A stretch of 64,000 bases of DNA from assembly GCA_026390115.1 (NCBI GenBank), contig JAPLGO010000024.1, forward strand, positions 1-64,000. The letters are read 5' to 3'. Of this stretch, positions 43,029-44,795 are shown piece by piece. The position numbers and the translations under genes are program-made. Every line of letters begins with the position of its first letter. The stretch's first letter is position 1. This DNA is from Campylobacterales bacterium (lineage in GTDB: Bacteria; Campylobacterota; Campylobacteria; Campylobacterales; Sulfurimonadaceae). Below the pieces are notes generated by a model. That model did not search any database. It worked only from the letters and a program-made list of their open reading frames with translations, and was not told the DNA's origin.

Positions 43029-44795
43029 ATGGAGTGGCATGTGAAAGAGAGTTCAGAGGTTTTAGCCAGAAAATATAGACCGTCAAACTTTGATGAGCTT
43101 ATAGGTCAAGAGACAATTTCTCAGACTCTCTCACTTGCACTCGACTCAAACCGCCTCTCTCATGCCTACCTTTTCTCAGGTCTCAGAGGAAGCGGCAAAA
43201 CATCAACCGCCCGTATTTTTGCAAAAGCTCTTATTTGCGAAAGGGGCATAACCCACAAGCCATGCGGAATTTGCCAAAACTGCACCCTCGCTCTGGAGGG
43301 TCGCCACATGGATATAGTGGAGATGGACGCCGCTTCAAACCGCGGAATAGACGACATCCGCGACCTTGTTGAGCAAACAAAGTACAAACCCTCCACCGCA
43401 AGATTTAAAATCTTCATAATCGATGAAGTCCACATGCTGACTCCTCAGGCCTTCAATGCACTTTTAAAGACGCTTGAAGAGCCGCCTGCCTATGTAAAGT
43501 TTATACTTGCAACAACTGACCCGCTGAAAATTCCAGCAACCATTTTGAGCCGTTCTCAGCACTTCAGATTTAAAAGCATAGCAACAAACAAGATAGCAGA
43601 CCATTTGGCATACATTCTTAATCGTGAAAAAATTGAGTATGAGAGTGATGCACTTGAAATACTCGCCAGAAGCGGCAACGGAAGTTTAAGAGACACTCTC
43701 ACTCTCCTCGACCAAGCCATCATCTACTCCAAAAATCATGTCGATGTCAAAACCGTAACCGACATGCTGGGTCTTGTTGACCCAAAATTTTTAACAGATC
43801 TCTTTGGTGCAGTTTTTGCAAAAGATTATGGACAGTTGGTTGAATATACCAAAATTTTAGAAGATTATGAAGCAGAGATGGTTGTGGATGAACTTATCGC
43901 CTACCTCAAAGAGCGAATGTATAACCATGACGCGCTCTTTTCAACACTGGTTTTAGATAGATTTTTCAGAATACTAAGTGACTCAAAATATCTCTTCAGC
44001 ATCAACGCAAACGGCTCTTTTGTCCTCTCCCTCATATTTTTCAAAATGGTTGAAGCACTTCGCATAAAAGAGATTGACCAGATGATTGAGTCTCTTCAGA
44101 AAGAGATTCAAAGACCGACGATAGAAGCTCCACATGCAGCAGTTGCGCACCCAAATCCGACAGAAGAGATACGAGTCCAACCGACCGTACAGGCTAAAGA
44201 AGAAATAGAAATCAGAATTGAAAAAGAGCCAAAAGCAACTTCATATTCCATTATCAATCCACATGTAAAAAGCTTTGAAGAATTGATAAATAGAATAGGA
44301 GACAGAAACCATAAACTCGGCGAATGTTTTACCAAAAGCGTAACATTTGTATCTTATGAGGACGGTATTTTGTCATGGGAGAGTTGTGCGAACGAGGAGT
44401 GCAAACAGGCACTCAAACATGGCTATACGGTTATCAGACAACTTGTTCGAGAGATATTTGGATTTGAAACCCAGATAAAAGGTTTGCCTTGTTCCAAAAT
44501 GATGGAAGAGGAAAAAAAAAATGATTTGATTTCAGAAAATGCTCCTCAAACGGTCGAGCCGACTGCAATACATCAACAACATATTATAGAACAGCCAGCA
44601 ATGCCGCTTGACCAAAGCAGTTCTATGATTGAAGATGCCGAAGTTAGCGGAAGTGATAGTTGCGTCAGCAGCTGTTCGCAAAGCGATGAATCCGCCAAAG
44701 AGATAAACGGAGTTGACATAAGAGAAGAGCCGATGGTTCAAAAAGCGATTGAACTTTTTGAAGCAAAAAAAGTAACAATTCAGTCTAAAATTTAA
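43029..44795 (+). CDS. dnaX: DNA polymerase III subunits gamma/tau
   Basis: ARKYRPSNFDELIGQETISQTL, YLFSGLRGSGKTSTARIFAKAL, Zn-binding Cys cluster, IDEVHMLTPQAFNALLKTLEEPP. GTG 43041 is an alternative start. Confidence 0.96.
   Translation: MEWHVKESSEVLARKYRPSNFDELIGQETISQTLSLALDSNRLSHAYLFSGLRGSGKTSTARIFAKALICERGITHKPCGICQNCTLALEGRHMDIVEMDAASNRGIDDIRDLVEQTKYKPSTARFKIFIIDEVHMLTPQAFNALLKTLEEPPAYVKFILATTDPLKIPATILSRSQHFRFKSIATNKIADHLAYILNREKIEYESDALEILARSGNGSLRDTLTLLDQAIIYSKNHVDVKTVTDMLGLVDPKFLTDLFGAVFAKDYGQLVEYTKILEDYEAEMVVDELIAYLKERMYNHDALFSTLVLDRFFRILSDSKYLFSINANGSFVLSLIFFKMVEALRIKEIDQMIESLQKEIQRPTIEAPHAAVAHPNPTEEIRVQPTVQAKEEIEIRIEKEPKATSYSIINPHVKSFEELINRIGDRNHKLGECFTKSVTFVSYEDGILSWESCANEECKQALKHGYTVIRQLVREIFGFETQIKGLPCSKMMEEEKKNDLISENAPQTVEPTAIHQQHIIEQPAMPLDQSSSMIEDAEVSGSDSCVSSCSQSDESAKEINGVDIREEPMVQKAIELFEAKKVTIQSKI
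44512..44521 (+). promoter_or_regulatory. dnaX: Candidate frameshift / transcriptional slippage site in dnaX
   Basis: GA-A AAA AAA AAT GAT TTG: a run of 10 A. Adding one A gives ...AAA TGA; removing one gives ...ATG ATT TGA. Confidence 0.6.

Follow-up and report, generated by a model that had tools for sequence, protein, structure and literature searches.

The DNA considered here, referred to as the window, is a stretch of 64,000 nucleotides from a Sulfurimonas bacterium whose genome amounts to 2.64 Mb. In the list of ORFs drawn up for the window, dnaX occupies positions 43029-44795 on the forward strand. Almost the entire product matches the NCBIfam gamma/tau model PRK08451 (762.7 bits; cut-off 572), and its core resembles the Escherichia coli clamp loader in a Foldseek comparison (E 1.7e-31). 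With both the AAA+ clamp-loader core and the tau/gamma family signature present, the protein is the DnaX (tau/gamma) subunit of DNA polymerase III. The initial annotation began translation at ATG 43029, which gives 588 aa for the full-length protein and approximately 498-500 aa for a short form. However, the start is probably GTG 43041 instead, since several congeners (e.g. L006, L012, L014, L017 and L031) contain an in-frame stop downstream of where 'ATG GAG' would lie and ahead of the GTG codon, and since the GTG is preceded by GGAG, a probable Shine-Dalgarno sequence read directly at 43031-43034 (+). The probable coding sequence of tau therefore extends over 43041-44795 (+), and the lengths are revised to 584 aa for the long form and about 494-495 aa for the predicted short forms.

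Late in the gene lies a run of ten adenines (A10; 44512-44521, +), a putative slippage site identified by direct reading and by comparison with congeners. The run falls at codon 495 of 588 (numbering from ATG 43029), where the in-frame codons are GAA AAA AAA AAT GAT TTG, and it contains, also read directly, the heptamer A AAA AAA in the register for -1 ribosomal frameshifting (44513-44519, +). If the run gains one A, or if the ribosome shifts by -1 after AAA AAA, translation continues with AAA UGA, the UGA of the -1 frame being at 44522-44524 (+); the loss of one A makes it continue with AUG AUU UGA, the UGA of the +1 frame being at 44527-44529 (+). As regards the sequence of the run, its phase and the stops in both shifted frames, the initial annotation was exact. 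It had also drawn attention to GGAAGAGG just upstream of the run; this is present in the genome of the window but is not conserved and has a spacing unlike that of an E. coli-type stimulator, and the upstream purine stretch has no conserved part in the putative slippage. Within the 2.64 Mb genome, GAAAAAAAAAATGATTTG occurs once, at the dnaX site, and a pattern search of the whole genome yielded six exact A10 runs. The only other one situated well inside a long frame, at G000:C16:39316-39327 (L296) in a frame of 233 codons, is likewise written GAA AAA AAA AAT (EKKN).

In an AlphaFold2 model of DnaX (52 homologues; residues numbered from ATG 43029), the core is well folded and the A10 run is situated just beyond a folded C-terminal domain. 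That domain, comprising residues 411-487 (44259-44489, +; pLDDT about 90-98), would be kept in the predicted short product. Lost from it would be a disordered, hypervariable linker that starts at the A10 run, residues 493-560 (44505-44708, +; pLDDT below 50), as well as a conserved C-terminal tail, REEPMVQKAIELFEAKKVTIQSKI, with a helix at residues 568-577 (44721-44792, +), which is recognized from the alignment, the structure and a weak match to PF12362. The Campylobacterota in the alignment conserve the end that would be lost, EPMVQKAIELFEAKKVTIQSKI, and its likeness to the C-terminal part of PF12362 (tau C-terminus) has an E value of 0.007, below the Pfam cut-off. The best PDB fold matches of domain 411-487 are DnaA domain I and DciA, a distant likeness. 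Domain V of E. coli tau was absent among the 50 fold matches listed, which were only distant small domains, and sequence searches of the PDB starting from the C-terminal region returned nothing useful. Additionally, the part of the linker near the C-terminus (44620-44685 of the window) carries a motif, SSMIEDAE..G..SCV..C, with two cysteines, that is conserved in most of the genus.

For an assessment across the genus, dnaX was taken from 122 Sulfurimonas genomes, that of the window included and many of them drafts. The initial annotation had proposed a check for a synonymous G breaking the run in relatives; the run proved to be intact, with 27 of the 122 genes having exactly A10 in the same phase, spelled GAA or CAA followed by AAA AAA AAT/AAC, and a run of nine or eleven A's in that phase being present at the site in none of the 122. 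In all 27 carriers, the run is located in the hypervariable linker after the folded C-terminal domain. A scan of named genomes brought up one Sulfurimonas carrier, an uncultured bin (L124); Sulfurimonas indica (L130) has an A8 nearby but not the site. The other 95 of the 122 congeners are without the A10 site, and a search of the A10-less congeners for other slippery heptamers with near stops revealed a few scattered AAAAAA and no shared site. Elsewhere in these dnaX genes, there are 86 A runs of length 7, 18 of length 8, 2 of length 9 and none of length 10; of the 32 instances of the pattern BAAAAAAAAAATGA in 136 genomes, 24 are the dnaX site. At codon 467 of L086, an A10 in another phase (TCT AAA AAA AAA ACT GAT) is found at the same place with a near -1 UGA; it is apparently independent of the main A10 site.

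The stops in the shifted frames are as regular as the run. Among the 27 carriers, 24 have an immediate -1 stop, and 22 have a +1 stop within three codons, the latter compared with 21 % at equivalent positions in homologues that lack the run; together with the phase of the A10, these stops lend support, at the level of sequence, to the programmed recoding of dnaX that the initial annotation had put forward. The mean distance to the stop is 0.5 codons in the -1 frame and 3.1 codons in the +1 frame, versus 9.2 and 12.4 codons in control draws, and distances this low arose in 0 of 5000 random draws from the same genes, the draws treating related taxa as independent. Synonymous changes counted on a tree, unlike those draws, take kinship into account. 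For 26 taxa, the tree-based counts at the E, K, K and N codons of the site are 0, 0, 0 and 2, whereas conserved Glu, Lys and Asn columns in the same taxa have undergone a mean of 4.5, 3.6 and 5.0 synonymous changes; summed over the four codons, there are 2 changes versus about 17 expected. The A10 run is constrained as nucleotides, beyond the peptide that it encodes. The codon that follows is GAT in nine cases, GAC in eight, GAA in five, GAG in one and another codon in three, with nine changes of its third base on the tree and the GA mostly held, such retention of GA being what the keeping of a UGA in the -1 frame would require.

These counts bear directly on the idea that conservation acts on the peptide EKKN[DE], e.g. 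as a protein-binding motif, and that the A run results from codon choice. The amino acids are indeed conserved too, and the genome is AT-rich; yet the codons at the site are invariant in taxa that elsewhere use GAG for 46 % of Glu, AAG for 19 % of Lys and AAC for 45 % of Asn, the following position holds D or E, its codon ending in any of the bases, such that only the UGA is kept, and the linker around the run is disordered and hypervariable. Across the whole genus, [EQ]KKN in the linker is coded by A10 in 27 of 27 cases, and the set was therefore not assembled by codon selection; EKKN written in other codons occurs in the linker of none of the congeners. Conservation of the peptide is, then, a very improbable account of the site. 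Just as improbable is a chance homopolymer, favoured by the AT-richness of the genome, or a contingency locus subject to slippage of the DNA itself. Homopolymer switches do exist in some Campylobacterota (Campylobacter jejuni, as cited in PMC1088944), and the dnaX linker of three congeners contains an extra base. Nevertheless, an exact A10 is rare in the genome, the other A runs in these genes fall away steeply between lengths 8 and 10, and the length of the run is identical in all 27 species.

Based on this evidence, the A10 run is very probably a programmed slippage site in dnaX and, if it is, transcription probably provides the main route. Overall, a programmed A10 site at which one dnaX gene would give rise to two proteins, most likely by slippage of RNA polymerase, is assigned a probability of roughly 0.64. 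RNA polymerase would slip on the A10 to produce mRNAs with one A more or one A fewer, and slipped mRNA of either kind would reach a stop within a few codons, yielding a gamma-like DnaX of the shorter length predicted above; the unslipped mRNA would yield the 584-aa tau, and -1 ribosomal slippage on A AAA AAA might make a contribution. Transcription is favoured because stops lie in both shifted frames, because conserved stimulators are lacking and because the run exceeds the length required of a ribosomal heptamer, its A's continuing through the third codon. As for an upstream Shine-Dalgarno stimulator, a 4-base match was found in 1 of 27 carriers (control 10 %) and a 5-base match in none; as for a 3' stem-loop, the mean folding z is -0.37 at the site versus -0.49 in controls, and the structures vary among taxa.

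The same two products could instead arise chiefly from a -1 shift of the ribosome on A AAA AAA, with the long run and the +1 stops as by-products. In favour of this route, the site has an in-frame heptamer of the X XXY YYZ type, A AAA AAA, followed by AAA UGA; the geometry A AAA AAA AAT GA is close to that of E. coli, where A AAA AAG is followed by a -1 stop one codon on; and the immediate -1 UGA, closer and more constant among carriers than the +1 stop, suits ribosomal frameshifting as well. Furthermore, a scan of the tRNA loci of the genome found only tRNA-Lys genes with a UUU anticodon, as in E. coli, and ribosomal slippage on A AAA AAA could therefore occur. However, the two stimulators of E. 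coli dnaX, an upstream Shine-Dalgarno sequence and a 3' hairpin (PMC3711429), are not conserved here, the A's extend beyond what the heptamer needs, and the +1 stops are clustered as well. In addition, A AAA AAG, which is more shift-prone in E. coli than A AAA AAA (PMC5009743), is not used with a near -1 stop at the site by any congener in the genus. Frameshifting on the ribosome as the main route is thus considered unlikely, while carrying distinctly more weight than either the peptide or the chance explanation.

Slippage by RNA polymerase, the preferred reading, has its closest counterpart in Thermus, where RNA polymerase slips on an A9 in dnaX to give gamma, and stops lie in both shifted frames (PMC1088944, PMC5009743). 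As in the Thermus thermophilus gene (PMC1088944, PMC5009743, PMC4320859), tau is encoded by a single intact ORF, the A run comes late in the gene (seven-eighths of the way along in Thermus, five-sixths here), near stops exist in both non-zero frames, and the short product, predicted in the present case, lacks the C-terminal end only. The hallmarks of the Thermus type, i.e. a run of at least nine A's late in an uninterrupted tau ORF and near stops in both frames, are accordingly found at this site, and the run length is kept among homologues, being A10 in all 27 carriers. On the other hand, the run here is an A10 followed by TGA with an immediate -1 stop, whereas the Thermus run is an A9; the phylum and the linker are different; and slippage here is predicted from the sequence. 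In E. coli dnaX, the signal consists of A AAA AAG, an upstream Shine-Dalgarno sequence and a 3' hairpin (PMC3711429). The two sites share the -1 stop directly after the slippery run and a long plus a short form of the clamp-loader subunit (predicted here), but the Sulfurimonas site has no conserved Shine-Dalgarno sequence or hairpin, and its run is extended to ten A's; moreover, the E. coli protein is cut at residue 431, early in domain IV (PMC11470591), whereas here the cut would come after the folded C-terminal domain. The Sulfurimonas site resembles Thermus dnaX more than E. coli dnaX, its mechanism being inferred. A third group, the two-ORF dnaX genes collected by GeneTack (nine with A10; Chlorobium and others), also has A10 and has been proposed to undergo transcriptional slippage (PMC3711429); there, however, the shift is needed for tau, whereas in Sulfurimonas tau is read in the zero frame and the short form would come from the shift. 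Three congeners, L096, L099 and L100 (genomes G057, G127 and G128), have a dnaX broken in the linker by a change of frame, located at a C6 in L096 and at an A8 in L099, with frame 0 ending early and the rest lying in another frame; these splits may reflect an error of assembly, a mutation or a gene of the two-ORF type, where tau depends on a shift.

As to what the two forms would do, E. coli tau without its last 25 residues has negligible binding to the alpha subunit, as is the case for gamma (PMC11470591). By analogy, the conserved terminal helix and tail of the Sulfurimonas protein are probably the contact with the polymerase alpha subunit. Short DnaX would keep the AAA+ clamp-loader core and the folded C-terminal domain, would lose the flexible linker and the terminal helix and, by the same analogy, would load clamps without tethering the polymerase. 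The formation of gamma by slippage in dnaX is already known from Thermus and E. coli, and a literature search found no report linking Sulfurimonas or Campylobacter to dnaX recoding; new here are strong comparative evidence for a putative dnaX slippage site in the Campylobacterota and its apparent gain or loss within one genus. According to a 2012 review, most bacteria keep no dnaX frameshift signature and may make no gamma (PMC3290774). A site that is the same letter for letter in 27 species and cleanly lost in sisters is strong evidence for selection on a second form in some lineages, and its presence and absence within a single genus allow paired comparisons of strains. Slippage that yields a shorter product is hard to recognize by sequence comparison (PMC1088944), a difficulty that Sulfurimonas dnaX answers for one gene.

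The history of the site was traced on a quick tree built from the conserved part of DnaX, the inner branches of which are weak. Eleven changes are needed to account for the presence and absence of A10 on this tree. Since all carriers are confined to one half of the genus, an old origin followed by repeated loss is likely, though the root, like some of the branches, is weakly supported. With 95 of the 122 congeners lacking the site, the short form is therefore either not needed throughout the genus or made in another way. Outside the genus, nine or ten A's stand at the equivalent position, with a -1 stop close behind, in several genomes from the rest of the family (other genera; L222, L229, L235 and L236) and in relatives of Geobacter and Desulfuromonas (L184, L191, L192 and L198); these may be recurrent, independent slippage sites. 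A still broader proposal, offered tentatively and with somewhat less than even confidence, is that a Thermus-like dnaX switch is widespread in bacteria, being old in Sulfurimonas, lost often and arisen independently elsewhere, and that many organisms regarded as tau-only also make the tail-less subunit. In L191 (Desulfuromonas), the A9 run reads GAG AAA AAA AAA GAG AGT GA. In L184, L192 and L198 (Geobacter relatives) as well as in L222 and L236, an A9 is written as GAA AAA AAA ANY CTT/CCT GA, with the -1 UGA slightly further on, and in the three Geobacter relatives this A9 lies amid GC-richer codons.
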